This document shows positions 31,896 to 52,290 of a stretch of 64,000 nt of DNA, one piece after another. The DNA comes from Paracoccaceae bacterium (GTDB lineage Bacteria; Pseudomonadota; Alphaproteobacteria; Rhodobacterales; Rhodobacteraceae), in contig JASJAR010000007.1 in assembly GCA_030066905.1 (NCBI GenBank), positions 62,001 through 126,000 of the forward strand, written 5' to 3'. Under the pieces are notes generated by a model that worked only from the letters and a program-made list of their open reading frames with translations, was not told where the DNA came from and ran no database searches. Both the position numbers and the translations under genes were made by a program. The first letter of the stretch is position 1. Each line of letters begins with the position of its first letter.

Positions 31896-33149
31896 ATGAA
31901 GAGAATTCTTCTTGCGGCCCTGCTCGCTTCATCATCGACCCTGGCCTATGCCGAGGGCGAACCGTTGAAGATCGGCTTTATGGCCACGCTGGAAGGGCCG
32001 TTCACGGTCTTAGGCGAAGATGGCCAGCGCGGGTTCGAGCTGGCCTTGCGCGAGGCCGATTACGAGGTGGCCGGCCGTCCCATCGAGGTCATCGTCGGTC
32101 CGACCGATGCAAGCCCCGAAAGTGCGCTGCGTGCCGCACGTAAGCTCGTGGAGCAGGACGAGGTCGATATCGTCATCGGGCCGCTTTCGGGCTCGGAAGG
32201 CATCGCCATGCGGGACTACTCGAAGACCGTCCCGCAAGTGACCTTCATCAACGGGATATCCGGGGCTCAAGAGACCACTCTGGTTGACCCGTCGGAGACC
32301 TTCTATCGCTACAATATGGACGGCGCCCAATGGACCATCGGTCTGGGCGATTACGTCTTCAACGAGAAGGGCTGGGAGGTCGTTGCGACCATCGCCGAGG
32401 ATTACTCCTTCGGCTACACCAACTTCATGGGCTTCGCGCTTGAGTTCTGCCGCGCCGGCGGCGACATCGTCGAGCGCCAGTGGGTGCCCCTTGGCACGAA
32501 GGATTTCTCGTCGATCATCGCGGCCCTCCCCGAAGACGTCGACGCGCTCTATCTCGGCCTCGGTGGCGCCGATGCCGTGAACTTCCTCAACCAGTACCTT
32601 CAGGCCGGCGGTGACGCGAACCTCATCGGCGGGACGATCATGGTCGACGGCACGGTGCTGAGCTCTGAAGGCCGCGCCAAGGAAGTGCTGATCGGGACGC
32701 CCTCGTCCGGCCCCCAGGCCGACACCTGGGACGATCCGAACTGGCAGGGCTTCGTGACCGCCTATCAGGAAGCCTGGCCGCCCGAGCAGCGCTTCCCCTC
32801 GCCATCGCTTCTGGCCACGGGGTACTACAACTCCACCAACGCGATGCTCGCCGCGATGGAAGCGGTTGACGGCGATTTGAGCGATGGCCAGGCCGGGTTC
32901 CGGGCGGCGCTTGCCTCGCTGGAACTCGATGCTCCCAATGGGATGATCTCGCTTGACGGCAACCGCCAGGCGATCGGGTCGAACTTCGTCACCGAAGTTG
33001 TCCAGATGGACGACGGAACGCTTGCCACCCAACTCGTCAACAAGATCGACGGGGTCGAGCAAACCCTCGGTCTGACGTCCGAGCAGTTTGCAGAACTTGG
33101 TCTCCCGAGCCGCGACGTTGTCGATTGCACGGCCTGGCAAGGCCGCTGA
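31896..33149 (+). CDS. Branched-chain-amino-acid-type ABC transporter substrate-binding protein
   Basis: The 417-residue protein has a signal peptide ending LAYA and a type I periplasmic-binding fold of the LivJ/LivK (Peripla_BP_6) group, starting EPLKIGFMATLEGPFTVLGEDG and including IVIGPLSGSEGIAMRDY. Members bind amino acids, amides, aromatic acids or urea, so the ligand cannot be read from sequence. ATG 31896 follows GGAGGAAG; ATG 31878 would place the ribosome site inside the gene. A strong terminator follows, allowing much higher expression than the permease genes downstream. Confidence 0.9.
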   Translation: MKRILLAALLASSSTLAYAEGEPLKIGFMATLEGPFTVLGEDGQRGFELALREADYEVAGRPIEVIVGPTDASPESALRAARKLVEQDEVDIVIGPLSGSEGIAMRDYSKTVPQVTFINGISGAQETTLVDPSETFYRYNMDGAQWTIGLGDYVFNEKGWEVVATIAEDYSFGYTNFMGFALEFCRAGGDIVERQWVPLGTKDFSSIIAALPEDVDALYLGLGGADAVNFLNQYLQAGGDANLIGGTIMVDGTVLSSEGRAKEVLIGTPSSGPQADTWDDPNWQGFVTAYQEAWPPEQRFPSPSLLATGYYNSTNAMLAAMEAVDGDLSDGQAGFRAALASLELDAPNGMISLDGNRQAIGSNFVTEVVQMDDGTLATQLVNKIDGVEQTLGLTSEQFAELGLPSRDVVDCTAWQGR

Positions 33150-33173
33150 TCGCACCCGCGACTGACCCTGAAC

Positions 33174-33200
33174 GACCCGGCCTTTGCGCCGGGTCTTTTT
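33174..33200 (+). terminator. Intrinsic terminator after substrate-binding gene
   Basis: GACCCGGC (33174-33181) pairs with GCCGGGTC (33188-33195), with a six-base loop and a following TTTTTA. It separates the abundant binding protein from the regulator and membrane components. Confidence 0.9.
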
Positions 33201-33295
33201 ATGGCTCCGACTTTCTTTTTGTCAAACCCGGACTTCCGCGTTAACGTTGCCCCCCGCCGGCGGGGAGGAGCCTGTTCGGGACCGGGAGAAAAGAT

Positions 33296-34120
33296 TTGGT
33301 TCGTGCGCTCGCCGTTCATCACGGCCTTTTCGGTCGGATCGCGATATACCGTTTTTGCGATCCCATGGTCGTCCACGCCCATCGCGAGGCACATCTGACA
33401 TTTCTCGTCGACGGTCCTGAAAGCGACATGCCGGTCGATGGCTGCCATGGCCCGCTCACGCAAGAGACGGTCGTCGCCTGCTCGCCCTGGCGGCCCCATG
33501 CGTTTCAACCGGGAAGCCCCACCGAGCCCAGCACGTTCCTGGTGCTTTACGTCTCGCCGATATGGTTCTCCGACCTCGATACCGAGATCAACCTCGGAAT
33601 GAAGTTCGGCTCGCATCTCTTTTATCGGACACAGAAAATCAAGGGTTACGTTACGAAACTGGTGAACCTTCTCTTCGTCGAAGAGCGCTCGGACCTCGTG
33701 GAAGGCTATATCTACGAGCTGACCCGGGAGTGTTTCGATGAGAGCCGGCGCCGGGTTGACGAGGACGGCAATGTCACCTTGGCGATGACGCCGGTGCCGG
33801 ATTTCCGCATTCGCCGCTCCATCGAGATGATGAAAGAGATGGTCGGCCACACGCTGGTGATCGAGGAAATCGCCGCCGCCTCGGGCGTCTCGCGGCCGCA
33901 TTTCTTCAAACTTTTCAAAGATTATACGGGGCTGACCCCCAATCTCTACCTCAACACGCTCCGCGTCGAGGCCGCCTTGTCGCGGCTCTGCGACCAAAGC
34001 CAGACCATCGCTGGCATCTCCGACGATCTCGGCTTTTCGAGCCAAGCGAGTTTCACCCGCTTTTTCTCCTCGAATGTCGGGGTGACCCCCAGCGAATACC
34101 GCCACGTCACGGCGGTCTGA
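33296..34120 (+). CDS. AraC-family transcriptional regulator
   Basis: The 274-residue protein has an N-terminal cupin-like sensor (VVHAHREAHLTFLVDG) and a C-terminal pair of helix-turn-helix motifs (IEEIAAASGVSRPHFFKLFKDYTG and IAGISDDLGFSSQASFTRFF) ending GVTPSEYR, standard for AraC activators. The start is TTG 33296 after GGGAGAAAAG; the next in-frame ATG (33365) would remove part of the sensor domain. It lies between the binding protein and permease genes and probably controls this cluster in response to its substrate. Confidence 0.9.
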   Translation: MVRALAVHHGLFGRIAIYRFCDPMVVHAHREAHLTFLVDGPESDMPVDGCHGPLTQETVVACSPWRPHAFQPGSPTEPSTFLVLYVSPIWFSDLDTEINLGMKFGSHLFYRTQKIKGYVTKLVNLLFVEERSDLVEGYIYELTRECFDESRRRVDEDGNVTLAMTPVPDFRIRRSIEMMKEMVGHTLVIEEIAAASGVSRPHFFKLFKDYTGLTPNLYLNTLRVEAALSRLCDQSQTIAGISDDLGFSSQASFTRFFSSNVGVTPSEYRHVTAV

Positions 34121-34242: not shown

Positions 34243-35286
34243 ATGGCGGACGCTCAGTCTTCATCGTCCACAGCGGGACCGTTGGCGACCGCAAAGAGCC
34301 GCTGGTGGGCGGCTGGCGGGGTCGCGGCCCTGGTCGTGCTCTGGCTCATCTTTGCGGTCTGGCCCGACTGGCTCGTGGCGATCCTCGGGCGCAAAAAGGT
34401 CTTTGTGAACGCGCTTTTGAACGGGGTCACCCTCGGCGCGCTCTATTTTCTCGTCGCCTCGGGCTTCACGCTGATCTTTGGGCTGATGCGCAACGTCAAC
34501 CTCGCCCATGGCTCGCTTTATCTCTTCGGCGCCTATCTCGGCTACGAGGTCAGCCGCATCACCGGCTCCTGGCTTCTGGCCTTCCCAATCGCCTTTCTCG
34601 CCATGGCCGCCCTCGGCACGCTATTGCAGATCTTCGTCTTCCGCCGGCTCGACGGGCAGGATTTGCAGCAGACGCTCATCACCATCGGCATCTCGGTCGT
34701 CCTCGCCGACATCATGCTCTGGATCTGGGGCGGGAGTTTCTATCAGATCCTCGCCCCCGACTGGCTGAGCGGACCCGTGGAGACCTTCATCCCAAGTTCC
34801 GTGAGCCGCCGGACGGGAGAGCTCATCTACATCAAATACCCCGCCGTGCGGCTCTTCATCCTGGTTTGCGCGGTGATCATCGGCGTCGGCATGTGGTACA
34901 TCCTCAACCGCTCGAAACTGGGGATGCTCATCCGCGCGGGCGTCGATGATCGCGAAATGCTCGCGGCCTCGGGCGTGCGCATCCAGCTCATCTTCGTATC
35001 AATCTTCGCCTTCGGTGCGGGGCTTGCAGGCGTCGCCGGAGTCGTCGGCGGCACGTTTCAGTCCATCGCGCCCGGGGAGGATACGCGGTTTCTGCTCTCC
35101 TCCCTCGTCGTCGTGATCGTCGGCGGGATGGGCTCGATCCCCGGCGCGGCGCTGGGTGCGATCCTCATCGGCTGCGCGGAGCAGTTCGGCTCGGTCTACG
35201 CGCCGACCTACTCGGTGGTTCTCACCTTCGTGATCATGGTCGCGGTGCTGGCGTTCCGCCCCCAGGGTCTTCTGGGACGCGCCTGA
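34243..35286 (+). CDS. ABC transporter permease, LivH family
   Basis: The 347-residue inner-membrane permease has about eight spans, the LivH opening LLNGVTLGALYFLVASGFTL, and FGLMRNVNLAHGSLYLFGAYL. The segment FGAGLAGVAGVVGG and the later GGMGSIPGAALGA are the usual contact regions. It has an unusual N-terminal extension of about 25 polar residues. GGGAGGAA precedes ATG 34243. It pairs with LivM (35288), two bases downstream. Confidence 0.93.
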   Translation: MADAQSSSSTAGPLATAKSRWWAAGGVAALVVLWLIFAVWPDWLVAILGRKKVFVNALLNGVTLGALYFLVASGFTLIFGLMRNVNLAHGSLYLFGAYLGYEVSRITGSWLLAFPIAFLAMAALGTLLQIFVFRRLDGQDLQQTLITIGISVVLADIMLWIWGGSFYQILAPDWLSGPVETFIPSSVSRRTGELIYIKYPAVRLFILVCAVIIGVGMWYILNRSKLGMLIRAGVDDREMLAASGVRIQLIFVSIFAFGAGLAGVAGVVGGTFQSIAPGEDTRFLLSSLVVVIVGGMGSIPGAALGAILIGCAEQFGSVYAPTYSVVLTFVIMVAVLAFRPQGLLGRA

Positions 35287-35287: not shown

Positions 35288-36334
35288 ATGGCGGATGTCT
35301 CAGAGGCCGCGGCACCCCTCGGGCGCTTCGATCTGACGCGCATCCCGGCCCATATCTGGGTCATCGTCGTGCTCCTGCTTTTGGTGCCGACCTTTACGAG
35401 CGGCTTCGTCCAGTTCCAGATATTCGGCTGGGCGTTCATTCTGGGGATGATCTCGCTCAGCCTGATGATCCTCGCCGGCTACGGCGGCATGGTGAGCCTT
35501 GTGCAGATGACAGCCGCCGCGGCGGCGGGCTACGCCGTGGCGATCTTCGGGGCGAGTGCCGTGGCCGAGATCAGCTTTGCCTGGCCTTGGCCCGTGGCGG
35601 TGATCCTTGCCATCGCGATCTCGGTCCTGGTCTGCGTGATCTCGGGCGCGCTCGCGATCCGGACCGAGGGCATCTACACGATCATGATCACGCTCGCCAT
35701 CGGGTCGGCGTTTTTCTACTTCACCCGGCAGAATTACACGGTGTTCAACGGGTTCACCGGATTTAACGGCGTGCAGCCGCCCCAGGTCTTCGGGGTGACC
35801 TGGAACGACCCGACGCCGTTTTACTACCTCACGCTCGCCTGTGCGGCACTCAGCTACTTTTTCGCGGTCTACCTCGCGCGCACCCCCTTCGGCCTCGCTT
35901 TGCAGGGCGTGCGCGACAACCCGCGCCGGATGGCGGCGATGGGCTATAACGTCAACGCCCACCGGCTCGCCGCCTATGCCGTGGCGGGTGTGATCTCGGG
36001 TGTCGCGGGCGTGCTTCTGGTCTGGTCGACGGGGCAGATCAGCCCCAACACGGCGGCCATCGGCCCGATCATCGACATTCTCGTCATCACCGTCATCGGC
36101 GGCATCAACCGGCCCATCGGCCCCTTTGTGGGCGCACTGATCTATGTGGTGCTCAGGACCTATTCGCTGGACGTCCTGACCGCCCTCGGGCTCGACGGCG
36201 AGCGCTTCAAGCTCCTGATCGGGATGGCGTTTCTGCTCATCGTCTATTTCTCCCCCGACGGGATGTGCGGCATCTGGGACCGCTATATCACCCGCCTCTG
36301 GCGCGACCCGAAGCGGGAGGGTGCCGATGGCTGA
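35288..36334 (+). CDS. ABC transporter permease, LivM family
   Basis: The 348-residue partner permease has about nine to ten spans with the LivM signature SLSLMILAGYGGMVSLVQMTAAAAAGYAVAIFGAS in its first third, and GVRDNPRRMAAMGYNVNAHRL, the cytoplasmic ATPase-coupling segment. The end DGMCGIWDRY is typical. Starts one base after the livH stop and overlaps livG by eight bases. Confidence 0.93.
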   Translation: MADVSEAAAPLGRFDLTRIPAHIWVIVVLLLLVPTFTSGFVQFQIFGWAFILGMISLSLMILAGYGGMVSLVQMTAAAAAGYAVAIFGASAVAEISFAWPWPVAVILAIAISVLVCVISGALAIRTEGIYTIMITLAIGSAFFYFTRQNYTVFNGFTGFNGVQPPQVFGVTWNDPTPFYYLTLACAALSYFFAVYLARTPFGLALQGVRDNPRRMAAMGYNVNAHRLAAYAVAGVISGVAGVLLVWSTGQISPNTAAIGPIIDILVITVIGGINRPIGPFVGALIYVVLRTYSLDVLTALGLDGERFKLLIGMAFLLIVYFSPDGMCGIWDRYITRLWRDPKREGADG

Positions 36335-37112
36335 AGCCGCGCAAGCCCCCCGCCGCGATGTCGGTGCGGAGTTCGCGCTGGAACTCACCGGGCTGTCAAA
36401 ACGCTTCGGCGCGCTGGCGGCCCTCACCGACATCTCGCTCAAAGTCCGCCCCGGCGAACGCCGCGCGGTCCTGGGCTCGAACGGGGCGGGCAAGACGACG
36501 CTTTTCAACTGCATCACCGGGGATTTCCCGCCGTCGGAAGGTGCCGTGCGGTTCTTCGGCGAGGACATCACCCGCTTTGCCGCCCATGAGCGCATCCGGC
36601 GGGGGCTCAGACGCACCTATCAGATCTCGCTTCTCTTCAACGGGCTGACCGTCTTCGACAACGTCTATCTCGCCTGCCGGGGGGTTTCCGCCGGACGGTT
36701 CTCTATGATCGGCCTCAGCCCCCGCGACCCGCTGACCGACGCCGCCGACGAACTCATCGAAATCGTCAATCTCGGCGAGGTGCGCGACGCCCCCGTCGCC
36801 GACCTTTCCTACGGCCAGCAGCGCCAGCTTGAGATTGCCCTGGCGCTGGCCGGAGCACCCCGCCTCATTCTCTTCGACGAACCCGCCGCCGGTCTCTCGC
36901 CGAAAGAACGGCGCGAGTTGATCGCCATCCTCGGGCGGATGCCGAACCATATCGGCTATGTCATCATCGAACACGACATGGATGTCGCGCTCTCGGTAAG
37001 CGACCGGGTTACGATGATGCATAACGGGCGCATCTTCAAAGAGGGCCTGCCCGACCAGATCGAGAAGGACCCCGAGGTTCAGGCGCTTTATCTGGGGAGC
37101 GGGCATGACTGA
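36327..37112 (+). CDS. ABC transporter ATP-binding protein, LivG family
   Basis: The 261-residue ATPase has Walker A GSNGAGKTT (residues 50-58), the signature LSYGQQRQLE, Walker B LILFDEPAAGLSPKE and H-loop VIIEHDMDVA, as in LivG. I chose ATG 36327, which follows AGCGGGAGGG and overlaps the livM stop, over GTG 36321. Overlaps the next ATPase gene by eight bases. Confidence 0.93.
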   Translation: MAEAAQAPRRDVGAEFALELTGLSKRFGALAALTDISLKVRPGERRAVLGSNGAGKTTLFNCITGDFPPSEGAVRFFGEDITRFAAHERIRRGLRRTYQISLLFNGLTVFDNVYLACRGVSAGRFSMIGLSPRDPLTDAADELIEIVNLGEVRDAPVADLSYGQQRQLEIALALAGAPRLILFDEPAAGLSPKERRELIAILGRMPNHIGYVIIEHDMDVALSVSDRVTMMHNGRIFKEGLPDQIEKDPEVQALYLGSGHD

Positions 37113-39273
37113 GCGCCCGAGCCAGCCCGCCCTGGAGGTCCGCGGCCTCAACGTCTTTTACGGCGCAAGCCACGCGCTTCAGGGCGTCGATCTCACGCTG
37201 CCCTCGGGGGTGCTCTCGGTCGTCGGCCGGAACGGCATGGGGAAAACGACGCTCTGCAAGACGGTGATGGGGCTTCTGCCCGCCGCCTCGGGCTCGGTCG
37301 CGATCTACGGCGCGCCGGTCCCCCAGGGCGATGCCGGGGCGGTGGCGCGCTCGGGCGTGGGCTATGTGCCCCAAGGCCGCCGCCTCTGGCGCTCGCTCAG
37401 TGTCCACGAACATCTCGTGATGCTCGAAAAACCCGGCGGGTCGTGGTCCGCCGAGCGGGTCTATGACGTCTTCCCCCGCCTCGCCGAGCGGCGCGGCAAT
37501 GGCGGCGGGCAGCTTTCGGGGGGCGAACAGCAGATGCTCGCCATCGCCCGGGCGCTGCTGCAAAACCCCCGGATGCTGGTGATGGACGAGCCGACCGAGG
37601 GGCTCGCCCCCGTCATCGTCGACCAGGTGGCCGAACTTCTGATCACGCTGGCCGCCCAGCGCGAGATGGACATTCTCGTCATCGAACAGAACATTCGGGT
37701 CGCCTGCGCGGTCTCGGAACAGGTGGCGATCATGCTCAACGGCCGGATCAACCGGCTGATCGATTCGACCCGCCTTGCCGCCGATACCGGCCTCCAACAG
37801 GCACTTCTGGGTGTCGGCCGCCACGAGGACGACACCGAGGAAGAAGCCGCCCCCACCGAGGCGGGCCCCACGCACAAGGGTCCCGATTTCATCTTCACCG
37901 TGAACCCCGAGCAGCCCCGCCGCTGGTCGCGCGACCTCAGCGAAACCGCCATCCGCCGCAAGGCACGCGCGGTGACCGCCGCCGCGCCGCCCGCGCTCCC
38001 GAAGGCCGCCGCGCTCATTCGCCCGAATCCGGTGCGGGGCAATCGGGGCCTCGTCATCGTCGCGGGCACAATGGACACCAAGGCCCAAGAGCTGCGCTTT
38101 GTCCGCGACATCCTCCGCCGCCATGGACTGACCGTGCGCCTGGCCGACCTCTCGCTTCGCCCCTCGGTCTCGGGCGCCGACATCCCCAGCCACGAGTTTG
38201 CCACGCTCGATTTCAACACCCACCGCCCGCTCGGCGACCGGGTCGCACAGATGGCCGAGGCTTTCGCGGCCTACGTCGCCAACCGCTCCGACATCGCGGG
38301 CATGATCTCGGTCGGCGGCTCGGGCGGCTCGGCCATCGCCGCACCGGCCTTGCGCGCCCTGCCCCTCGGCGTGCCGAAGATGCTGGTGACCACCATGGCC
38401 TCGGGCGATGTGTCGGCTTACGTCGGCGGTTCGGACCTCATCGTCATGCCCGCCGTCGCCGATCTTGCCGGGCTCAACCGGATCACCGGGCAGATCCTCG
38501 CCAATGCCGCCCACGGTTTCGCCGGCATGGTGCTGGCGCGCGGCGAGGACGGCCACGGACAGATCGACCGTGCGGCCGTCGGGCTGACGATGTTCGGTAT
38601 CACCACACCCTGTGTGACCGCCCTCACCCACGCCCTCGAAGACCATCACGAATGCATCGTCTTTCATGCCACCGGCAGCGGCGGACGAGCCCTCGAAGCC
38701 CTCGTCGCCGAAGGCCAGCTTCAGGCGGTCTACGACATCACCACCACCGAGATCGCGGACCATATCGCCGGCGGGACCTTAAGCGCCGGTCCCACCCGGC
38801 TCGATGTCTTCTCCCGCATCGGCCTGCCTTACATCGGTGCCGCCGGGGCGCTCGACACGGTCAATTTCGGCGCCCCCGATACCCTGCCCGACTGGGCGCG
38901 GGCCCGCACCCTTTATCAACACAACCCCCAGGTGACGCTCATGCGCACCAATGCCGAGGAGGCCCGCAAGATCGGCGCCTTCATTGCTGAGAAGCTCAAC
39001 AAGATGGCCGGACCGGCGGTGTTCCTTCTCCCCGAAGGCGGGCTCTCGGCCCTCGACACCCCCGGCGGGCCGTTCGAGGACAAGGCCGCCAACGCCGCCC
39101 TTTTCGAGACCATCGAGCGCGAAACCAAGCAGAGCCGCACCCGCCGGGTGATCCGCCTGCCCTACCACATCAACGCCCCCGAGTTCACCAAGGCCCTTTT
39201 GCGCGAAACCCGTGAGATCGCCCCCAAGGCTGCGCAGGGGACCACAGCAGAAAGGCGGCTCGCCCATGGCTAG
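37105..39273 (+). CDS. LivF-type ABC ATPase fused to a Tm-1-like (UPF0261) ATP-binding domain
   Basis: Residues 1-235 are a complete LivF ATPase: Walker A GRNGMGKTT (41-49), signature LSGGE (137-141), Walker B LVMDEP (158-163). A proline- and charge-rich linker (about 240-310) leads to residues 314-722, a UPF0261/Tm-1-like domain that begins RGLVIVAGTMDTKAQELRFV and includes VGGSGGSAIAAPALRALPLG. In plants the N-terminal half of the Tm-1 resistance protein belongs to this family and binds ATP. The fusion physically links transport to an enzyme-like domain of unknown reaction. The next gene encodes a TIM barrel like the other half of Tm-1. Confidence 0.92.
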   Translation: MTERPSQPALEVRGLNVFYGASHALQGVDLTLPSGVLSVVGRNGMGKTTLCKTVMGLLPAASGSVAIYGAPVPQGDAGAVARSGVGYVPQGRRLWRSLSVHEHLVMLEKPGGSWSAERVYDVFPRLAERRGNGGGQLSGGEQQMLAIARALLQNPRMLVMDEPTEGLAPVIVDQVAELLITLAAQREMDILVIEQNIRVACAVSEQVAIMLNGRINRLIDSTRLAADTGLQQALLGVGRHEDDTEEEAAPTEAGPTHKGPDFIFTVNPEQPRRWSRDLSETAIRRKARAVTAAAPPALPKAAALIRPNPVRGNRGLVIVAGTMDTKAQELRFVRDILRRHGLTVRLADLSLRPSVSGADIPSHEFATLDFNTHRPLGDRVAQMAEAFAAYVANRSDIAGMISVGGSGGSAIAAPALRALPLGVPKMLVTTMASGDVSAYVGGSDLIVMPAVADLAGLNRITGQILANAAHGFAGMVLARGEDGHGQIDRAAVGLTMFGITTPCVTALTHALEDHHECIVFHATGSGGRALEALVAEGQLQAVYDITTTEIADHIAGGTLSAGPTRLDVFSRIGLPYIGAAGALDTVNFGAPDTLPDWARARTLYQHNPQVTLMRTNAEEARKIGAFIAEKLNKMAGPAVFLLPEGGLSALDTPGGPFEDKAANAALFETIERETKQSRTRRVIRLPYHINAPEFTKALLRETREIAPKAAQGTTAERRLAHG

Positions 39274-44019: not shown

Positions 44020-44486
44020 CCACGCCTGTCCATTTCACCCATAACGGCCGCCCGGTGTCGCTCTTCACCGAAGCCGGCGAGAGCCTTTTGTCGCTCCTGC
44101 GGCTGAAACTCGGCGACCAGACCCCGAAATACGGCTGCGGCCAGGGCGGCTGCGGCGCTTGTTCGGTGCGGATCGACGGGCAATTGCGTCTGGCCTGCCT
44201 GACCTTGGCCGAGACGGTGGACGGGGCCGAGGTCGAAACCGTCGCCGCCCTCTCCGCCCCCAACCTCGACCCGCTGCAAGAGGCGTTCATGGACCACTTC
44301 GCGGCTCAGTGCGGCTATTGCACGCCGGGCATGATCGTGGCCGCACGGACACTGCTGGACACCAATCCGCGCCCCAGCCGCGACGAGGTGATCGAGGCGA
44401 TCTCGGGCAATCTCTGCCGCTGCACTGGCTACGAGCCGATCATCGACGCGATCCTCGCCGTCGCGGCGCAGGAGGTCAGCGCATGA
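44016..44486 (+). CDS. Molybdenum hydroxylase [2Fe-2S] (small) subunit, CoxS-like
   Basis: The 156-residue protein has both clusters: plant-type ligands C41, C46, C49 and C61 (CGQGGCGACS and RLAC), and the C-terminal ligands C99, C102, C134 and C136 (CGYC and CRC). It relays electrons from molybdenum to FAD. It overlaps both neighbours by four bases (ATGA). Confidence 0.95.
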   Translation: MTTPVHFTHNGRPVSLFTEAGESLLSLLRLKLGDQTPKYGCGQGGCGACSVRIDGQLRLACLTLAETVDGAEVETVAALSAPNLDPLQEAFMDHFAAQCGYCTPGMIVAARTLLDTNPRPSRDEVIEAISGNLCRCTGYEPIIDAILAVAAQEVSA

Positions 44487-46153
44487 GCCTAGACTTCCGC
44501 AAAGATCTTTTTGCCGATGAGCGTGACGACAACCTCAACGTCGTTGGCAAACCGATCCGGCGCCAAGACATCCTCGGCCATGTCACCGGCACCTCGCCGT
44601 TCTTCGATGACAACAAATTCGACAACCTCCTGCATCTGAAATGCGTCCGCTCCCCCCATCACCACGCGCGCATCGTCTCCATCGACACCGCGAAGGCCGA
44701 GGCGATGCCCGGCGTCGTGCGGCTCTTGCGTGGGCGGGACGTGCCAGTGAACCTCAACACGCTTCTGAGCCTCCTCGATTTCGGCCTTGATGATGAGCCG
44801 GTGCTGGCCGAGACCAAGGTCAGCTACTGGGGCGAGCCCATCGTCGCGGTGATCGCGACGAGCGAACAAGCCGCGCTCGATGCCGTCGCTGCGGTCGAGG
44901 TGCGCTACGAAGAGCTGCCGGCGGTGTTCGATGTCGAAGAGGCGTTGAAACCCGGCGCGCCGACGGTGAACGAGACCTATCCGGGCAATCATTTCGTCTT
45001 CTACGAGAACACCGACCACCAGCGCTTGCGCTTCGGCGATACCGAGGCCAGGTTCGCCCGTGCGGCTCATATCGTCGAGGGCCGCTATCAGCTTACACCA
45101 ATTGAGCAGGCCCCGATGGAGCCCAATGGTGCTATTGCGGCACCTGAAACCAACGACCGCTTCGCTTGCTATACGCCGACCCAAGGGCTTTTCTTCTCGG
45201 TCGGCACCTGCGCCAAAGTGCTCGATGTCGATCTCAACCGGCTCCACTTCATCGGCGGCACCGTCGGTGGCGGCTTCGGCGGTAAGGTGGACAGTGTGTG
45301 CGAACCCCTTGCGATCCTCGGCGCGATGCTCACCCGCCAGCCGGTGCGTTATGTGCTGAACCGGGCCGAAGAGATGCAGGTCTCCGCCCCGCGCTCGGCT
45401 GAGTTGTGGGAGATCAAGGACGGTATCGCCGAGGACGGGCGCATCCTGGCGCGCGAATTCAAGGGCTGGTTCGATGCCGGGGCCTATACCCGCCTCACCT
45501 CCTACGGGGTTGTCAAATGCACCGGCCACCTGCCGGGGCCCTACACGATCCCAGCGGTGAAATCCGACATCTGGTGCGTCTTCACCAACCGCACGCCCGC
45601 CACGGCGATGCGCGGCTTTGGCGTGCTCGGCGTCGATTTCGCCATCGAACGGCAGATGGACAAGGGGGCGCGGGCCGCCGGGCTCGGGCCGATGGAATAC
45701 CGGCTCATCAACGCCTACCGCGACGGCGACATGAAGGCGACGCGGCGGGTCGCCTCGAACACCGCGCTTGTCGAATGCATCCAGGTCGCCGCCGAGAAGG
45801 CGGGCTACCCGCTGGCACCTGAATACAAGGCGATGACTTCGATGACCGGGGCGAGCCTGACGCAAATCCCCGAGACCGTGACCGACAGCGGCCGCCGCCC
45901 CGCCGGGTATACGGCGATTGAGAAGACGGAAGTGTCCCCGGGTCTCGGCGAGGCCGCCCAGGTCCAGCCCACACCCGCCGCACCCGTGGCCCGTGCCCGC
46001 ACCGGCGGCGCGAGCAGCCTGCCCGAGCGTCCGAGCTACGCCCCCCAGCCCGCGCCCCCTCAGGCCGCTCCACCGCCCGCGCCCGAGCCGCCAGAGCCGG
46101 CCCCGGCAAAACCGCGCTACTCGCGCTATTCCTCATCGATCCGGAGGCGCTGA
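44483..46153 (+). CDS. Molybdenum hydroxylase large subunit, N-terminal part (NdhL-like) with proline-rich tail
   Basis: The 556-residue protein covers the hammerhead domain (residues 17-130) and the first molybdopterin-binding domain with GGTVGGGFGGKVDS and ATAMRGFGV. It stops before the second molybdopterin domain, which is encoded by the next gene. A 70-residue proline/alanine-rich tail (about 480-556) ends SSSIRRR. In most relatives both domains are one protein of about 770 residues, but nicotinate dehydrogenase of Eubacterium barkeri has the same L/M split. Probably catalyses hydroxylation of an aromatic or N-heterocyclic carbon. Substrate unknown. Confidence 0.9.
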   Translation: MSLDFRKDLFADERDDNLNVVGKPIRRQDILGHVTGTSPFFDDNKFDNLLHLKCVRSPHHHARIVSIDTAKAEAMPGVVRLLRGRDVPVNLNTLLSLLDFGLDDEPVLAETKVSYWGEPIVAVIATSEQAALDAVAAVEVRYEELPAVFDVEEALKPGAPTVNETYPGNHFVFYENTDHQRLRFGDTEARFARAAHIVEGRYQLTPIEQAPMEPNGAIAAPETNDRFACYTPTQGLFFSVGTCAKVLDVDLNRLHFIGGTVGGGFGGKVDSVCEPLAILGAMLTRQPVRYVLNRAEEMQVSAPRSAELWEIKDGIAEDGRILAREFKGWFDAGAYTRLTSYGVVKCTGHLPGPYTIPAVKSDIWCVFTNRTPATAMRGFGVLGVDFAIERQMDKGARAAGLGPMEYRLINAYRDGDMKATRRVASNTALVECIQVAAEKAGYPLAPEYKAMTSMTGASLTQIPETVTDSGRRPAGYTAIEKTEVSPGLGEAAQVQPTPAAPVARARTGGASSLPERPSYAPQPAPPQAAPPPAPEPPEPAPAKPRYSRYSSSIRRR

Positions 46154-46155: not shown

Positions 46156-47160
46156 ATGGCCAAACATCGCGGACGCGGCACGGTCGCGGTCAACTACCCC
46201 ATCGGCATGAACCTTGGCGGAGACCCCTCCCAGGCGCTGGTTCACTCCAACCCCGAGGGGCAGTTCACGGTCGCGCTCAGCTCCATTGACCTCGGCCAGG
46301 GGATGAAGTCGGTCACCCGCCAGATCGCGGCGGAAACCCTCGGCGTGCCGGTGGGGCATGTCTATGTCGACACCGCCGACAGCGACACCGGCGCGCAATG
46401 CATGGGCAGCTTCGCCTCGCGCGGCACCCACCGGGTGGGCAACGCGGTGATCGCGGCGGCCAAGGAAGCCCGCGCGGTCATGCTCGCCGCCGCCGCCCGC
46501 GAGCTCGAAGTGAACCCCACGGACCTCGAAACCGACGGCCTCGGCAACATCCATGTCAAAGGCGCGCCCCAGCGGAGCGTGACCACGAAGGACGCCGCCA
46601 ACGCCGCCCAGTTCAAATACGGCGAGAGCGTCTCGGGCAGCGGGATCTTCCTCATCCCGATGTCGGATGTGGATGTGGAAACGGGCGAGATGAACACTGT
46701 CTCGTGCTTTGCCCATTGCGCGATGATCGTCGATTTGACCGTTGACGATAAAACGGGTGAGATCAGCGATGTGCAGATCAACTCGGCTTACGAAATTGGC
46801 CGCGCGCTGAACCCCAAACTGATGGAACAGCAACTCGTCGGCGGCGCGTGGATGGGCCTCAGTCACGCGGCTTACGAGACGACCGAACCCGCGTATCCGA
46901 GCCGCGACCACCGTCCGTTCGATTTCTCCTCCTACGTGATGCCCGGCCCCGGGGACCTCGCACAGCACGACATCGCCATCCTCGAACGCCCCGCCCCCGA
47001 CGGCCCGTTCGGGGGCAAGGGCCCGGGTGAGATGTGCGCCAACCCGGTGCTGCCGGCGGTGGCCAACGCGGTGTTCGACGCGGTCGGGGTCGAGATCGAC
47101 ACGCTTCCCATCACCCCCGAGCGCATCCTGCGCGCACTGAAAGAGCAGCGCGGGGCGTGA
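46156..47160 (+). CDS. Molybdenum hydroxylase large subunit, C-terminal part (NdhM-like)
   Basis: The 334-residue protein holds the second molybdopterin domain, with HRGRGTVAVNYP at its start, SSIDLGQGMKSVTRQIAAETLG (cofactor binding) and GPGEMCANPVLPAVANAV, which carries the active-site glutamate. Its length is close to the medium molybdopterin subunit of bacterial nicotinate dehydrogenase. It begins two bases after the N-terminal part, and the break falls exactly in an interdomain linker, so this looks like a stable split, not a sequencing error. Confidence 0.9.
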   Translation: MAKHRGRGTVAVNYPIGMNLGGDPSQALVHSNPEGQFTVALSSIDLGQGMKSVTRQIAAETLGVPVGHVYVDTADSDTGAQCMGSFASRGTHRVGNAVIAAAKEARAVMLAAAARELEVNPTDLETDGLGNIHVKGAPQRSVTTKDAANAAQFKYGESVSGSGIFLIPMSDVDVETGEMNTVSCFAHCAMIVDLTVDDKTGEISDVQINSAYEIGRALNPKLMEQQLVGGAWMGLSHAAYETTEPAYPSRDHRPFDFSSYVMPGPGDLAQHDIAILERPAPDGPFGGKGPGEMCANPVLPAVANAVFDAVGVEIDTLPITPERILRALKEQRGA

Positions 47161-48026
47161 GCGGTCCGGCGCGCATAAAGGGCCTCGGCTCGCCCGAGGA
47201 TGTGCGCGCGGCACTCTCTGCCGCGCAATACATCGCGTCCGAAGACCTCGCCACCGCCGTCTACCTCGCCATGGCGCTCCGCAAACCCCTCCTTCTCGAA
47301 GGCGCGCCGGGGGTCGGTAAGACCGAGGCGGCCAAGGCGCTCGCCGCCGCGCTGGCCTGCGAGCTTGTGCGGCTTCAATGCTACGAGGGCATCGACGCCA
47401 GTGCCGCGCTCTACGAATGGAACTTCCCGCGCCAGATGCTCGCTATGCGCCAGGAGGCGACGGGCGAGATCGACGTCTATGACGAAAAATTCCTCATCGC
47501 CCGGCCGCTTCTCAAAGCGCTTAGGCTCGAAGCCGAGGGGCTCTTGCTGATCGACGAGATCGACCGCGCCGACCCCGAATTCGAAGCCTTCCTTCTGGAA
47601 TTCCTCTCCGATTTCCAGATCACCATCCCCGAACGCGGCCGCATCCGCGCGGCACGTCGCCCCTTTGTCGTGCTGACCTCTAATCGCACCCGCGACCTCC
47701 ACGAAGCCCTCCGCCGTCGCTGCGTCTACCACTGGATCGACTACCCCGAACCGGGGCTCGAAGCGGAGATCGTCACCACCCGCGCACCTGGCGTGGCCCG
47801 CGACACCGCCCGGGCCATCGTCGCCGCCGTGGGCCGGATGCGGGCCGAACCGCTCGCCAAGGCGCCCGGCGTGGCCGAGACAGTGGAATGGGCCGAGGCC
47901 GCCACCCGTCTCCACGATCTCGGCCAACCCTGGCCCGAGGCGTTTCGGCGCTCCATCGGGGTGGTGCTGAAGGACCAGGACGATCTGGCCTATCTCGAAC
48001 CCCGCATCGAGGCGCTGATCGGATGA
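47157..48026 (+). CDS. MoxR-family AAA ATPase (CoxD-like maturation factor)
   Basis: The 289-residue ATPase has Walker A GAPGVGKTEAAKA, Walker B LLLIDEIDRAD and a sensor region VLTSNRTRD. CoxD-type MoxR proteins are needed to finish the metal centre of CO dehydrogenase and related molybdenum hydroxylases. It starts at GTG 47157, overlapping the NdhM-like stop, and overlaps the VWA gene by four bases. Acts with the VWA protein as a chaperone pair. Confidence 0.9.
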   Translation: MSGPARIKGLGSPEDVRAALSAAQYIASEDLATAVYLAMALRKPLLLEGAPGVGKTEAAKALAAALACELVRLQCYEGIDASAALYEWNFPRQMLAMRQEATGEIDVYDEKFLIARPLLKALRLEAEGLLLIDEIDRADPEFEAFLLEFLSDFQITIPERGRIRAARRPFVVLTSNRTRDLHEALRRRCVYHWIDYPEPGLEAEIVTTRAPGVARDTARAIVAAVGRMRAEPLAKAPGVAETVEWAEAATRLHDLGQPWPEAFRRSIGVVLKDQDDLAYLEPRIEALIG

Positions 48027-49123
48027 GCCTCGATCTGCCCTCCGCCCGCCTTGTGGGGTTCGCGGACACACTCCGTGCCGCGGGCTTTGCCGCCAGCACC
48101 GATCTGGCGATTTCCTTTCTCGCCGCCACCCAGGCGCTTGGTCCCCGAAGCCTCGACGACATCCGCCGCGCGGCCCGCGCCGTCTTCGGCCCCGCCCCCG
48201 AGCGGCGGGGGGAGTTCGAAGCGCTGTTTGATGCGCATTTCCTGGGCCGTAATCGGGTTGTCCAGACCTCCGAAGACACCGAGGATGACAGCCCGCAAGA
48301 GGGCGCCACGCCACCGGACGGGGCGGCCGAGCCGTCCGACAGCCCAGGGCCAACGGCCTCGGTCGACCGCGTGGCCCATCGCCGCGAGGTCGCACCCGCC
48401 GATGACGATCTCGCCCTGCGCCACTTCGCCCGTGTCGCGCCGAGGCGCCTGCCCGAACGGCTGACCCGCCGCTGGTCGCCCGCCCCCAATGGCCGGACCT
48501 ATGACCGCCAGCGCATCCTGCGGGCCGCCGCCCGGCGCGGTGGCGAGGTGCTCGACCTGCCGATGCGCAAGCGGCAGCGGCGGCTCCGCCCGGTGCTGCT
48601 CCTCGTCGATGTCTCCGGCTCGATGAAGGAGCACAGCGACAGCGTCCTCCGCCTTGCCCATACGCTCGTCCGCCTGCCCACCCGGGTCGAGGTGTTCTCG
48701 CTGGGCACCGATCTCACCCGCCTTACGCCCGCGCTCAAACTCCGATCGGAGGCTCAAGCGCTCTCCAGGGTCGGCGCAATGATCCCCGATTTCGATGGCG
48801 GTACCCGTCTGGGTGAAACCTTGGGGCAGCTTTTGCGCACACCGCGCCTCGCTGCCTTCGCACGCGGGGCCATCGTCGTGACCGTCTCGGACGGGCTGGA
48901 GATCGGCGATAGCGACGCCCTCACCGCCGCCGCGCGCAAGCTCCACCACCTCGCCTTCGCCCATCTTTGGCTGACGCCGCTCGCGACCGGCCCCGGCTTC
49001 ACCCCTCAAACCGAGGCGCTCACCCGTATCGCCCCCTTCATCGACGAATTCGGCAGCGCCCGAAGCATCGCCCATATCTGCGCGCATCTTCTGGGCGCGC
49101 CCCTGACCGAGGAGGCCGCCTGA
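48023..49123 (+). CDS. VWA-domain protein (CoxE-like maturation factor)
   Basis: The 366-residue protein has an N-terminal helical part, an acidic low-complexity linker (about 95-125), and a C-terminal von Willebrand A domain with the metal site VDVSGSMKEHSDS and later TVSDGLE. CoxE proteins pair with MoxR/CoxD ATPases to insert or activate the metal centre of molybdenum hydroxylases. Position right after MoxR supports that. Confidence 0.9.
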   Translation: MSLDLPSARLVGFADTLRAAGFAASTDLAISFLAATQALGPRSLDDIRRAARAVFGPAPERRGEFEALFDAHFLGRNRVVQTSEDTEDDSPQEGATPPDGAAEPSDSPGPTASVDRVAHRREVAPADDDLALRHFARVAPRRLPERLTRRWSPAPNGRTYDRQRILRAAARRGGEVLDLPMRKRQRRLRPVLLLVDVSGSMKEHSDSVLRLAHTLVRLPTRVEVFSLGTDLTRLTPALKLRSEAQALSRVGAMIPDFDGGTRLGETLGQLLRTPRLAAFARGAIVVTVSDGLEIGDSDALTAAARKLHHLAFAHLWLTPLATGPGFTPQTEALTRIAPFIDEFGSARSIAHICAHLLGAPLTEEAA

Positions 49124-50659: not shown

Positions 50660-50661
50660 CA

Positions 50662-51402
50662 ATGACCAACCGCAACGACGTCGCCGTGATCACCGGCGGC
50701 GCCCAGGGGATTGGCCTCGCCTGTGCGAAGAAACTGGCGGCAATGGGCGCAAAGGTCGCCCTTTGGGACTACGACCAGGCCGCTCTCGACGCCGCCGTTG
50801 CAGACTTTGCCGAGGGCACGGCCAAAGCCGTCCAGGTCGACATCACCGACTACGCCGCCGTCGCCCAAGCCGTCGAGGCGACCGAAGCAGGCTTGGGCCC
50901 GATCACCCAGGTGGTGAACTCCGCCGGGATCGCGGGGCCGAACGCCCCCATCGAGGACTATCCGCTTGAGGACTGGAACCAGATCCAGATGGTTAACCTC
51001 ACCGGTTCCTTCCACGTCCTCCGTGCCATCCTGCCGGGAATGAAGGCGCGGAGCTATGGACGGATCGTCCTTGTGGCCTCCGTTGCCGGGAAGGAAGGCA
51101 ACCCCAGCGCCTCGGCCTATTCGGCCTCGAAAGCGGGCGTCATGGCGCTGACGAAATCGGCCGGCAAGGAATGCGCCAAGCTCGACATCGCGGTCAATTG
51201 CGTGACACCCGCCGCCGCCAAGACCCGCATCTTCGATCAGATGAGCGAGGAGCATATCGGCTATATGCTCTCGAAAATCCCCCGCGAGCGGTTCTTGATG
51301 GTCGATGAGGCCGCCGCCATGATCGGCTGGCTCTGCTCGGCGGAGAACAGCTTCACCACCGGGGCCGTGTTCGACCTCTCCGGCGGCCGCGCGACCTATT
51401 GA
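50662..51402 (+). CDS. Short-chain dehydrogenase/reductase
   Basis: The 246-residue SDR has the NAD(P) site ITGGAQGIGLACAK, the NSAGIAGP strand, and the catalytic YSASK with serine in ASVAG. A D after the second strand (LWDYDQ) favours NAD over NADP. Starts two bases after the fusion gene. In context it should oxidise a hydroxyl intermediate of the pathway. Confidence 0.9.
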   Translation: MTNRNDVAVITGGAQGIGLACAKKLAAMGAKVALWDYDQAALDAAVADFAEGTAKAVQVDITDYAAVAQAVEATEAGLGPITQVVNSAGIAGPNAPIEDYPLEDWNQIQMVNLTGSFHVLRAILPGMKARSYGRIVLVASVAGKEGNPSASAYSASKAGVMALTKSAGKECAKLDIAVNCVTPAAAKTRIFDQMSEEHIGYMLSKIPRERFLMVDEAAAMIGWLCSAENSFTTGAVFDLSGGRATY

Positions 51403-51444
51403 GGGCGGCATCGCTTCCGTTCAAAGACCTAAGAAAGAGACCCA

Positions 51445-52290
51445 ATGAAACTCCTCCGCTACGGCGCGCCCGGCGCCGAAAAACCCGGCCTCCTCGACGC
51501 CGATGGCATGATCCGCGACCTCAGCGGGGAGGTGGCCGATATCGCGGGGCCCGTGCTTGGAGATGCAGACCTCGCCCGGCTGGCCGCGCTCGATCCGGCC
51601 GGTCTACCGGCGGTCGAGGGCACACCGCGTATCGGCCCCTGCGTCGCCGGGGTTGGCAAATTCATTTGCATCGGCCTCAACTACTCCGACCACGCCGCTG
51701 AAAGCGGTATGGACGTCCCCTCCGAGCCGGTTGTGTTCTTCAAAGCCACCAGTGCGATCTGCGGGCCCAACGACACTGTCGAAATCCCCCGGGGCTCGGT
51801 CGCCACCGATTGGGAGGTGGAGCTTGGCGTGGTGATCGGCAAGGAGGCCAAGTACATCGACGAAGCCGACGCGCTCGACCATGTGGCTGGCTATTGCATC
51901 GTCAACGACCTCTCCGAACGCGACTTCCAACTGAAGCGCCAGGGTCAGTGGGTGAAGGGCAAAAGCGCCGACACATTCGGCCCCATCGGCCCCTGGCTCG
52001 TCACCCGCGACGAGGTGCCCGACCCGCAGAACCTCAAGATGACGCTCGATGTGAACGGGCAGCGCTTCCAGGACGGCACCACAGCGACCATGGTCTACGG
52101 CGTCGCCCATATCGTGGCTTACCTCAGCCAGTTCATGTCGCTCCAGCCAGGCGATGTGATCTCCACCGGCACGCCTCCGGGCGTCGGCATGGGTCAAAAA
52201 CCACCCCGGTATCTCGCGCCTGGGGACAAGGTCGAGCTGTGGATTGAGAGGTTGGGCGGACAGACCCAGACCGTGATCGCCGCAAAATAG
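51445..52290 (+). CDS. Fumarylacetoacetate hydrolase-family protein
   Basis: The 281-residue protein has an N-terminal lid domain and the FAH fold with metal residues in DWEVELGVVIG, KGKSADTFGPIGPWL and STGTPPGVGMG. The family hydrolyses C-C bonds of 2,4-dioxo acids or catalyses related lyase and hydratase steps; many close members carry a poorly supported ureidoglycolate lyase label, which I do not adopt. Last gene of the plus-strand run; it could cleave the ring-opened product. Confidence 0.9.
   Translation: MKLLRYGAPGAEKPGLLDADGMIRDLSGEVADIAGPVLGDADLARLAALDPAGLPAVEGTPRIGPCVAGVGKFICIGLNYSDHAAESGMDVPSEPVVFFKATSAICGPNDTVEIPRGSVATDWEVELGVVIGKEAKYIDEADALDHVAGYCIVNDLSERDFQLKRQGQWVKGKSADTFGPIGPWLVTRDEVPDPQNLKMTLDVNGQRFQDGTTATMVYGVAHIVAYLSQFMSLQPGDVISTGTPPGVGMGQKPPRYLAPGDKVELWIERLGGQTQTVIAAK

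Follow-up and report, generated by a model that had tools for sequence, protein, structure and literature searches.

Several described systems resemble parts of the locus reported here. Nicotinate dehydrogenase, which acts on nicotinate and contains a labile selenium ligand, has its molybdenum subunit as two chains (large and medium); its structure 3hrd is that of the Eubacterium barkeri enzyme, and we know of no Liv importer, UPF0261, TIM barrel, flotillin, SRPBCC, MoxR or VWA operon partners in that system. Aerobic CO dehydrogenase (CoxMSL, with CoxD and CoxE) is a three-subunit FAD/Fe-S/molybdenum enzyme with MoxR and VWA_CoxE partners, whose active-site loop carries either a cysteine (form I) or the motif AYRGAGR (form II). 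According to the accessible parts of one study, the UPF0261 and TIM barrel parts of Tm-1 are fused in land plants, where a role beyond virus inhibition was left open, and are generally separate genes with signs of co-evolution in prokaryotes (PMC5028733). Aryl ketone catabolism by the Hpe/Acv acetovanillone pathway begins with HpeHI, a two-component, ATP-using enzyme, and includes a biotin carboxylase (PMC12167813, PMC9618137, both in part); HpeHI is described as a dikinase with an ATP-grasp and a swivel domain (PMC12167813), and the accessible text of both papers contains no mention of UPF0261 or Tm-1.

The window analysed here is a stretch of 64,000 nt from a Paracoccaceae bacterium (GCA_030066905.1, contig JASJAR010000007.1, positions 62,001 to 126,000 of the forward strand). 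All 19 genes of the run noted in a preliminary description are present on one strand at 31896-52290, with open frames, and each family named there was backed by Pfam in a profile search of the 19 proteins (Table 1). The tight spacing from livM to the SDR gene was borne out as well, the starts ranging from 14 bases ahead of the preceding stop to 3 bases beyond it; the FAH start lies 42 bases past the SDR stop. Because a strong terminator-like hairpin follows LivK, the run is probably more than one transcript, and with the AraC gene set apart (215 bases past LivK, by the start used, and 122 bases ahead of livH), it probably comprises two or three transcription units, LivK and AraC probably being transcribed separately.

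Table 1. Features of the gene run (coordinates within the window).
Feature	Position	Strand	Basis or remark
LivK-type periplasmic binding protein (Peripla_BP_6)	31896..33149	+	Pfam; nearest solved chain 4zpj, 137.7 bits
Intrinsic-terminator-like hairpin after LivK	33174..33195	+	8 bp, 7 GC pairs, T run
AraC-family regulator	33365..34120	+	Pfam; start uncertain, ORF opens at 33296
LivH permease	34243..35286	+	Pfam
LivM permease	35288..36334	+	Pfam
LivG ATPase	36321..37112	+	Pfam
LivF ATPase fused to UPF0261 (Tm-1-like N-terminal domain), 722 aa	37105..39273	+	Pfam
TIM barrel PF09370 (Tm-1 C-terminal-domain-like)	39266..40126	+	Pfam, structure match
Flotillin, hydrophobic N-terminus	40123..42321	+	Pfam Band_7 and Flot, both over gathering
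SRPBCC protein 1 (Polyketide_cyc2)	42321..42758	+	Pfam
SRPBCC protein 2	42762..43208	+	Pfam
FAD subunit (CoxM/XdhB-like)	43198..44019	+	Pfam
2x[2Fe-2S] subunit (CoxS-like)	44016..44486	+	Pfam
N-terminal half of split molybdenum subunit (a/b hammerhead and MoCoBD_1), 556 aa	44483..46153	+	
Pro/Ala-rich tail of the N-terminal half	45848..46150	+	~residues 456-556; start judged by eye
C-terminal tip PRYSRYSSSIRRR	46112..46150	+	consensus RFSSxxGxRRR or RFxSGxRRR
C-terminal half of split molybdenum subunit (MoCoBD_2), GPGE motif, 334 aa	46156..47160	+	
MoxR-type AAA+ ATPase (CoxD-like)	47157..48026	+	Pfam
VWA_CoxE protein, DVSGS motif	48023..49123	+	Pfam
SMP-30 lactonase-like and isochorismatase-like fusion, 510 aa	49127..50659	+	Pfam
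SDR, optional member	50662..51402	+	Pfam
FAH-family hydrolase, optional member	51445..52290	+	nearest L-2,4-diketo-3-deoxyrhamnonate hydrolase

The genes are inherited as a block and not scattered. All 78 other loci in which hydroxylase genes occur (two are duplicates, leaving 76 distinct, and many are MAG contigs) show their available core genes in an identical order, which argues against a chance neighborhood. The regular core consists of LivHMGF, UPF0261, the TIM barrel, flotillin, two SRPBCC proteins, the hydroxylase, MoxR, VWA and the SMP-30-isochorismatase protein; the full set of 15 core genes was available for 65 of the 78 loci, and most of the others are truncated where the contig or locus stops. 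The block occurs in Rhodobacteraceae, Hoeflea, Roseibium, Bosea, Bradyrhizobium, Mesorhizobium and some gammaproteobacterial genomes. One locus, L121, was counted among the 78 on a CoxM match 2.4 kb past SRPBCC2; in the 9.1 kb ahead of its TIM barrel gene no Liv or UPF0261 match was found, except ∼30% LivG/LivF matches to an unrelated ABC ATPase gene.

With a probability of roughly 0.55, the genes together form a single conserved catabolic system whose substrate is a small organic acid or ketone, probably aromatic or heteroaromatic. The gene set and its order, the fusions, the split, the tail and the conserved active-site motifs are seen directly in the sequence; we infer the aromatic substrate, activation by ATP, scaffolding, a docking partner of the tail and the following order of steps. 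The Liv-type ABC importer would take up the compound, which the LivF-joined UPF0261 and the TIM barrel, as a split, Tm-1-like two-part enzyme, would activate at the membrane, probably with ATP. The flotillin would be the scaffold of the assembly and the SRPBCC pair would hold a hydrophobic intermediate, to be oxidized by the FAD/Fe-S/molybdenum hydroxylase, which MoxR and VWA would mature and whose split large subunit would be tethered via a disordered arm that ends in a conserved basic tip. The SMP-30 protein would open the product, in most relatives along with Amidohydro_2 and metallo-β-lactamase (MBL)-fold lactonase-like proteins.

Both parts of Tm-1 are recognizable in the window. The UPF0261 domain scored 165.2 bits against PF06792 and 274.7 bits against PF23189 (gathering cut-off 27 each), and the TIM barrel 383.2 bits against PF09370 (gathering cut-off 33.8); the structure models matched Tm-1 (Z 39.9) and Mll9387 2p10 (Z 34.9, rmsd 2.1, 254 aligned), respectively. 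The pair thus resembles plant Tm-1 and the bacterial UPF0261 and PF09370 proteins, but UPF0261 is here fused to the LivF ATPase, inside a catabolic operon. This fusion was found in all 74 testable loci (of 80); G078 and G090, both without flotillin at that place, encode LivF and UPF0261 separately. Annotations of UPF0261 homologues elsewhere read “Tm-1-like ATP-binding domain”, which is a name only. The UPF0261 homologue 9mpy (VIA Z 30.5) had, according to its entry title, acetovanillone bound, the same compound as in the Hpe/Acv pathway, which could be an adventitious ligand. Considered as a candidate, a phenolic dikinase like HpeHI/AcvAB, as described in the accessible text, was rejected: no ATP-grasp or PEP-synthase-like swivel Pfam domain was found in the 19 proteins (E 0.001).

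UPF0261-TIM pairs elsewhere lie beside sugar-type ABC transporters, Gfo/Idh and cupin genes, and also with DUF1097 alone, which shows that the pair is not restricted to aromatics. Its sugar-transporter neighbors fit a sugar-acid or polyol-lactone pathway, in which the molybdenum enzyme would act on an imported sugar acid or lactone as an aldehyde or aldose dehydrogenase, the SMP-30, Amidohydro_2 and MBL lactonases would open the lactone, and SDR and FAH would carry out the final cleavage in the manner of the non-phosphorylating L-rhamnose route. The FAH protein scored 418.8 bits to the 2,4-didehydro-3-deoxy-L-rhamnonate hydrolase family NF053535, which is below the equivalog cut-off of 500, and 317 bits to a solved L-2,4-diketo-3-deoxyrhamnonate hydrolase; past it, on the other strand, the window contains UxuA, aldose epimerase, sugar ABC system and MR_MLE genes. 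Because its nearest relative is a sugar-acid hydrolase and sugar-acid genes come next downstream, the last part of the run may belong to a different pathway. SDR and FAH, which had been counted as part of the set, are present in the window but are not regular members of related loci: a same-strand SDR gene directly behind the isochorismatase was found in 3 of 20 downstream regions of relatives and a same-strand FAH gene in none of the 20 (locus G062 has both). An amidohydrolase (Amidohydro_2) was found in the regions of 17 of 20 relatives, an MBL-fold protein in 18 and at least one of the two in all 20; both are absent from the window. That SDR and FAH are optional speaks against the sugar-acid pathway, as do the importer genes, which are Liv-type in flotillin clusters with the upstream part in hand (L121 excepted), the aryl ketone in the title of 9mpy, and the proximity of the hydroxylase to enzymes of aromatic substrates. 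On balance, this pathway is considered unlikely.

The best-scoring solved relatives of the hydroxylase are nicotinate dehydrogenase, quinoline 2-oxidoreductase and 4-hydroxybenzoyl-CoA reductase, with xanthine, aldehyde and CO enzymes ranking lower. The preliminary description had called it CoxMSL-type with MoxR and VWA factors, which is apt for the three-subunit FAD/Fe-S/molybdenum set, but not for the enzyme as a CO dehydrogenase: the large subunit is split, the two halves scored 138.3 and 89 bits against TIGR02416 (cut-off 991.15) and 176.2 and 117.7 bits against NF040766 (cut-off 950), where the cut-offs are set for the whole protein and the sums of the halves are also far below, and RGFG (AMRGFG), not a CO dehydrogenase motif, is present in all 69 hydroxylase sequences (GPGE in 68 of 68). 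Xanthine dehydrogenase (pucD; TIGR03196, 248.1 and 97.1 bits, equivalog cut-off 783.65) and 4-hydroxybenzoyl-CoA reductase alpha (TIGR03194, 236.6 and 186.9 bits, equivalog cut-off 994.55) were likewise rejected. In each of the 62 testable loci (of 80), the split lies between MoCoBD_1 and MoCoBD_2. It has the same domain boundary as 3hrd, whose large molybdopterin subunit is the nearest solved relative of the N-terminal half (199 bits), which would suit an N-heterocycle pathway of the nicotinate type, with downstream hydrolases opening the ring and releasing ammonia. The C-terminal half, however, is slightly closer to 4-hydroxybenzoyl-CoA reductase than to nicotinate dehydrogenase (140.9 versus 133.9 bits), and no enamidase or maleamate amidase was recognized among the families found. 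Moreover, the cysteine-hydrolase branch of the isochorismatase family (amidases) uses an Asp-Lys-Cys triad, of which the isochorismatase domain, in one ORF with SMP-30 in 25 of 25 relatives, retains Asp and Lys; at the Cys position it has Ala in the window and Ser in all 25 relatives. Assignment to that branch was rejected, and without the nucleophilic cysteine, N-heterocyclic amide hydrolysis is not indicated. As to the aromatic or N-heterocyclic substrate originally proposed, an aromatic or heteroaromatic compound agrees with the best solved hydroxylase relatives and the title of 9mpy; a nicotinate-type route appears improbable.

In 69 of 69 sequences, the N-terminal half of the molybdenum subunit terminates in a Pro/Ala-rich tail whose basic tip is conserved; none of three split homologues from two genomes without cluster-type flotillin has it. 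Chain A of 3hrd is only 425 aa long, which leaves no room for such a tail. The last arginine codons of the tip coincide in part with the probable ribosome-binding site of the gene for the C-terminal half, which comes next. The long flexible tail with its conserved tip suggests that the hydroxylase is tethered to its partners; no such arm-and-tip organization is known to us from the molybdenum hydroxylase family.

Cluster-type flotillin was found in 12 of 337 genomes of the class of the window organism, in all 12 with the TIM barrel nearby on the same contig. Wherever hydroxylase genes are present, SRPBCC2 is unfused (79 of 79 loci), whereas it is fused to an MDR oxidoreductase in all eight hydroxylase-less loci with a complete SRPBCC2; it thus seems to be paired with a redox enzyme. 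The hydroxylase-less cluster of Variovorax has a Rieske oxygenase gene ∼4 kb farther along. That transporter and UPF0261-TIM serve one substrate and the hydroxylase module another, within a mobile or selfish block, is quite improbable despite UPF0261-TIM-flotillin-SRPBCC clusters without hydroxylase (G116, G192, G218, G235, G391, G446, L118 and Variovorax), a locus ending after SRPBCC1 without SRPBCC2 and hydroxylase (G029, Liv-UPF0261-TIM-flotillin-SRPBCC1), one with TIM, flotillin and both SRPBCC genes without adjoining Liv-UPF0261 (L121), and split hydroxylases apart from the module (G308, G401), because the oxidoreductase fusion looks like substitution inside one pathway, the tail was found only in flotillin-linked hydroxylases and the order of the available genes does not vary across the 78 loci.

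Within the reading as one catabolic system, a flotillin-scaffolded metabolon physically coupling import, ATP-dependent activation and oxidation is proposed tentatively, and is itself rather doubtful. The LivF-UPF0261 fusion would join the first two; the split would free a C-terminus for the disordered Pro/Ala-rich arm, whose tip RFSSxxGxRRR might dock on a partner, the acidic SRPBCC2 being the best candidate; and the redox slot would be modular, taken either by the tail-docked molybdenum hydroxylase or by the covalently fused MDR oxidoreductase. Should such docking occur, the molybdenum hydroxylase would possess an arm-and-tip tether. Since some clusters have a fused oxidoreductase in place of the hydroxylase, what the SRPBCC protein does can be tested directly. 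Literature searches found no described pathway with this set, as had been surmised, and a fixed-order operon across these taxa points to a common nutrient. For the Tm-1-like UPF0261/TIM pair, the cluster provides a defined catabolic setting in culturable bacteria.

All nineteen same-strand genes claimed in the preliminary description are present on the forward strand of the window, which lies in contig 14 of a draft genome of 3.69 Mb, and each family named there was confirmed by Pfam, in the order from LivK to the FAA hydrolase (see the table). The tight packing reported from livM to the SDR gene was also recovered, no start lying more than 14 bases ahead of the preceding stop or more than 3 bases past it. 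Because a strong terminator-like hairpin follows LivK, LivK and AraC are probably separate transcription units. On both strands of positions 35000-53500, 11 terminator-like sites were found and 11.2 were expected from shuffles, that is, no excess.

Features of the window and of fetched loci (L-numbers; G-numbers are relatives' genomes)
Source	Position	Strand	Feature
Window	26543-27865	-	Cytochrome P450 gene
Window	27865-29091	-	409-aa protein adjoining P450, no Pfam match
Window	29168-29920	-	DsbD_TM protein, within the P450 region (26543-29920)
Window	31896-52290	+	Pfam order: LivK, AraC, LivH, LivM, LivG, LivF-UPF0261, PF09370 TIM barrel, flotillin, two Polyketide_cyc2 (SRPBCC), FAD subunit, 2Fe-2S subunit, MoCoBD_1, MoCoBD_2, MoxR-type ATPase, VWA_CoxE, SGL-isochorismatase, SDR, FAA hydrolase
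Window	33174-33195		Strong terminator-like hairpin, end of LivK
Window	52818-59715	-	Sugar-acid cluster convergent with the run: UxuA, aldose epimerase, SDR, sugar ABC ATPase, permease, binding protein, MR_MLE enolase-type enzyme
L121, gammaproteobacterial MAG	9133-13638		TIM, flotillin, SRPBCC1, SRPBCC2
L172, Variovorax paradoxus VAI-C	10968-16813		SRPBCC2-MDR fusion, VOC, two oppositely oriented regulator genes, tripartite tricarboxylate binding protein, Rieske oxygenase genes
L163, Limibaculum	7205-9969		Second molybdenum hydroxylase set, only ~30% identical, near the cluster
L187, G235			Second molybdenum hydroxylase set, only ~30% identical, near the cluster
L180, G063	10741-18806		Decayed hydroxylase part
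L063, Qingshengfaniella	13291-15039		PEP hydrolase family-annotated gene adjoining UPF0261-TIM pair
L064, Azospirillum	8821-10647		PEP hydrolase family-annotated gene adjoining UPF0261-TIM pair
L066, Terrarubrum	6073-7923		PEP hydrolase family-annotated gene adjoining UPF0261-TIM pair
L067, plasmid pNGR234a	8779-10834		UPF0261-TIM pair with cupin, Gfo/Idh and sigma-54 regulator genes
L175, plasmid pMLa	4656-6711		UPF0261-TIM pair with cupin, Gfo/Idh and sigma-54 regulator genes
L065, Vibrio casei plasmid	6742-9408		Minimal UPF0261-TIM-DUF1097 unit and TetR gene

The predicted co-inheritance of these genes was found well beyond the window. A flotillin alignment was used as the query for a scan of a named genome collection, the best 80 of at least 565 relatives were kept, and loci fetched earlier were added. 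In this sample, 78 loci besides the window carry hydroxylase genes (two are duplicates); the core genes in hand stand in the same order in all of them, none deviating, and all 15 are in hand in 65. Among these loci are representatives of Hoeflea, Roseibium, Jannaschia, Bosea, Bradyrhizobium and Mesorhizobium, as well as gammaproteobacterial MAGs. In Jannaschia pohangensis (L080/L155) and Bradyrhizobium diazoefficiens (L147/L161) the cluster was followed as far as SMP30-isochorismatase. When the flotillin-to-SRPBCC gap was measured by HSP ends, 13 of the 78 loci fell within range; the shortfall is put down to the HSP missing the variable coiled part, and the gene order is unaffected. The SRPBCC proteins of genome G087 and locus L078 are identical. 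In fetched neighbourhoods, the window's order from LivK to the SMP30-isochorismatase fusion was seen in G004, G026 and G062, from LivH onward in G025, and in G014, G040 and G087 up to the point where the contig stops.

Genome-wide occurrence was surveyed in two samples. Among 147 relatives, the TIM barrel family PF09370 was found in 19 (18 above the family cut-off), and all 11 genomes with a cluster-type flotillin (E ≤ 1e-110) have it. A close homologue of CoxL-C, the C-terminal half of the split molybdenum subunit, occurs in nine, eight of them with PF09370; in the ninth, G063, PF09370 was not found. G063, a relative of the same family as the window, has a copy in which SMP30, MBL and MoxR match in pieces and CoxL-C contains an internal TGA, the contig ending at the CoxS match. 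In an even draw of 337 genomes from the class (cut-offs E ≤ 1e-60 for PF09370 and E ≤ 1e-105 for flotillin), PF09370 was present in 30 and the flotillin in 12, with PF09370 close by on the same contig in 12/12. CoxL-C matched in seven of the 337: five matches were strong (window included), with flotillin on the same contig in all five, and two were distant (G308 and G401).

Gene fusions and the split are regular features too. Among the best 80 of at least 565 flotillin relatives, LivF and UPF0261 form a single protein in 74/74 testable loci, and two genes encode the molybdenum subunit in 62/62. SMP30 and isochorismatase share one ORF in 25/25 relatives. Cysteine hydrolases of the isochorismatase family use an Asp-Lys-Cys triad; here Asp and Lys are kept, and the third site is Ala in the window and Ser in 25/25 relatives. 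With Ala or Ser at the Cys position, the domain probably does not act as an ordinary amidase. The SMP30 search covered 24 of the 80 loci, and downstream regions were fetched for 20 of those, several ending at contig ends. The SMP30-isochorismatase protein is present in 20/20, an Amidohydro_2 protein in 17/20, an MBL-fold lactonase-like protein in 18/20, and one or the other of the latter two in 20/20. In the window neither adjoins the cluster, and a search of its whole genome gave no MBL match, in a run made without a positive control, and an amidohydrolase match of only 29%. The window thus holds a reduced, divergent version of the regular unit. The nineteen-gene set stood as a run, but counting the SDR and the FAH-family hydrolase (FAH) as members did not: an SDR directly follows the cluster in 3/20 downstream regions and a same-strand FAH in 0/20, both being found in G062, so the two are optional. 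They could functionally be part of the convergent sugar-acid cluster. An iron-type alcohol dehydrogenase occurs in 42/78 loci and an aldehyde dehydrogenase in 15/78, both counts being limited by locus ends.

A second conserved feature lies at the end of CoxL-N, the N-terminal half of the molybdenum subunit. Past its catalytic homology the protein continues as a low-complexity arm (Pro 26% and Ala 19%, vs 5% and 10% in the body), which, judged by composition, would be disordered; counted from the ALVEC region, the C-terminal stretch spans 101-214 residues (median 147). Among 69 tails (68 closed ORFs, from 76 CoxL-N loci among the 78, plus the window; 68 distinct), the C-terminus is R[RK]R in 69/69, with Gly at -5 in 64/69 and Phe at -10 or -8 in 64. 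The window's own tip, RYSRYSSSIRRR, is an odd one, with Tyr for Phe and no Gly at -5. The tip pattern ends 61 of 16,297 frames of at least 80 codons in all loci in hand, some of them overlapping, and 61/61 contain the RGFG of CoxL-N in the same frame. The RRR end is not purely a protein motif: AGG AGG predominates for the Arg residues at -3 and -2 and doubles as a good ribosome-binding site for CoxL-C, accounting for some of the conservation. Synonymous codons vary at the F, S and G positions, so the tip is constrained at the level of the protein. No tail is present in the split homologues of G308 (two) or G401, which are 48-50% identical and come from genomes lacking this flotillin, and chain A of nicotinate dehydrogenase (3hrd) is only 425 aa long. 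Splitting therefore predates the tail or extends beyond it, and the tail accompanies the flotillin-linked system.

The second SRPBCC protein, SRPBCC2, is a stand-alone protein in 79/79 loci with hydroxylase genes, window included. In 8/8 hydroxylase-less clusters it is instead a 484-501-aa protein with a C-terminal MDR-type dehydrogenase (ADH_N and ADH_zinc_N; L118, G116, G192, G218, G235, G391, G446 and Variovorax paradoxus VAI-C). A script listed 20 flotillin loci without hydroxylase genes; the eight with a complete SRPBCC2 were counted and 12 left out, namely G029, which lacks SRPBCC2, G384, cut inside it, L141, with a stand-alone SRPBCC2 212 bases from the locus end, and the rest, with no SRPBCC2 in hand. 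FAH comes next in the hydroxylase-less clusters of G218, G391, G446 and G116, with an alpha/beta hydrolase and an Amidohydro_1 protein following in G446; Variovorax has a VOC gene and, after another ~4 kb, a Rieske oxygenase gene. We infer one redox slot that would have two fillings, either an MDR oxidoreductase fused to SRPBCC2 or the hydroxylase, which would be held to SRPBCC2 by a docking tail. With kinship ignored, only SRPBCC2, out of nine proteins compared, shows a clear difference in charge (-7.0, n = 79, hydroxylase type, vs -1.8, n = 8; Mann-Whitney p 5.6e-5); SRPBCC1 differs oppositely (p 0.02), and the seven others gave p ≥ 0.07. Because kinship is uncorrected and n = 8, the acidity of SRPBCC2 in the hydroxylase type gives a hint, and a weak one, that it is the docking-tail partner.

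Some loci depart from the usual arrangement. In L121 a CoxM match lies 2.4 kb beyond the tabulated genes, and the 9.1 kb before TIM gave no Liv or UPF0261 match save for an unrelated ABC ATPase gene matching at ~30%; UPF0261 may be elsewhere in that genome. G029 runs from Liv through UPF0261, TIM and flotillin to SRPBCC1 and then ends without SRPBCC2 or hydroxylase. In G078 and G090 the transporter and UPF0261-TIM occur with no flotillin adjoining, and there LivF and UPF0261 are separate genes. The PEP hydrolase family genes of L063, L064 and L066, 1.7-1.9 kb long, encode about twice the TIM protein length, so the barrel may be fused there to another protein, perhaps a regulator.

As to the substrate, the pathway guessed initially, import and hydroxylation of an aromatic or N-heterocyclic compound followed by ring or lactone cleavage, is plausible, and we favour import, activation and oxidation of an aromatic compound. 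Such a substrate fits the solved proteins that score best against the hydroxylase: nicotinate dehydrogenase, quinoline 2-oxidoreductase, 4-hydroxybenzoyl-CoA reductase and 6-hydroxypseudooxynicotine dehydrogenase. Enzymes for aldehydes, xanthine and CO score lower. UPF0261 matches plant Tm-1 (Z 39.9) and Saro_1862 of Novosphingobium aromaticivorans (9mpy, titled "with bound acetovanillone"; VIA Z 30.5). A published account of 9mpy was not found in the literature searched: term searches for 9mpy or Saro_1862 gave nothing in PMC12997858, PMC12710314, PMC11323797 and PMC8612281, and Saro_1862 is absent from the passages seen of PMC11837543 and PMC12607616. The acetovanillone kinase HpeHI is, according to passages of PMC12167813, a two-component enzyme like the proposed UPF0261-TIM, but a different one; as a phenolic dikinase it was rejected as the counterpart because its domains differ. 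After 2p10 (Mll9387), TIM is next closest to 2-methylisocitrate lyase, Rv2606c and ketopantoate hydroxymethyltransferase by Foldseek, and to triosephosphate isomerase, TrpA and IGPS by VIA; only a general barrel follows from the fold, from which the reaction is not derivable. No solved relative of LivK was decisive for its ligand.

The main rival is a sugar-acid or lactone pathway. Against the aromatic reading, UPF0261-TIM pairs elsewhere occur with sugar-type transporters, Gfo/Idh or cupin genes, or near-alone, and the closest relative of FAH is a sugar-acid hydrolase. An N-heterocycle of the nicotinate type is another rival; a nicotinate or purine pathway by name was rejected, no NCBIfam equivalog having passed for the hydroxylase. 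Both active-site motifs, RGFG and GPGE, are intact, so the hydroxylase should be an active enzyme and not a CO dehydrogenase, an identity rejected on scores and motif.

Each single protein of the unit is a member of a known family. In the literature searched, no description was found of the gene combination, the LivF-UPF0261 coupling, the arm and tip of the split molybdenum hydroxylase, or the exchangeable redox module.
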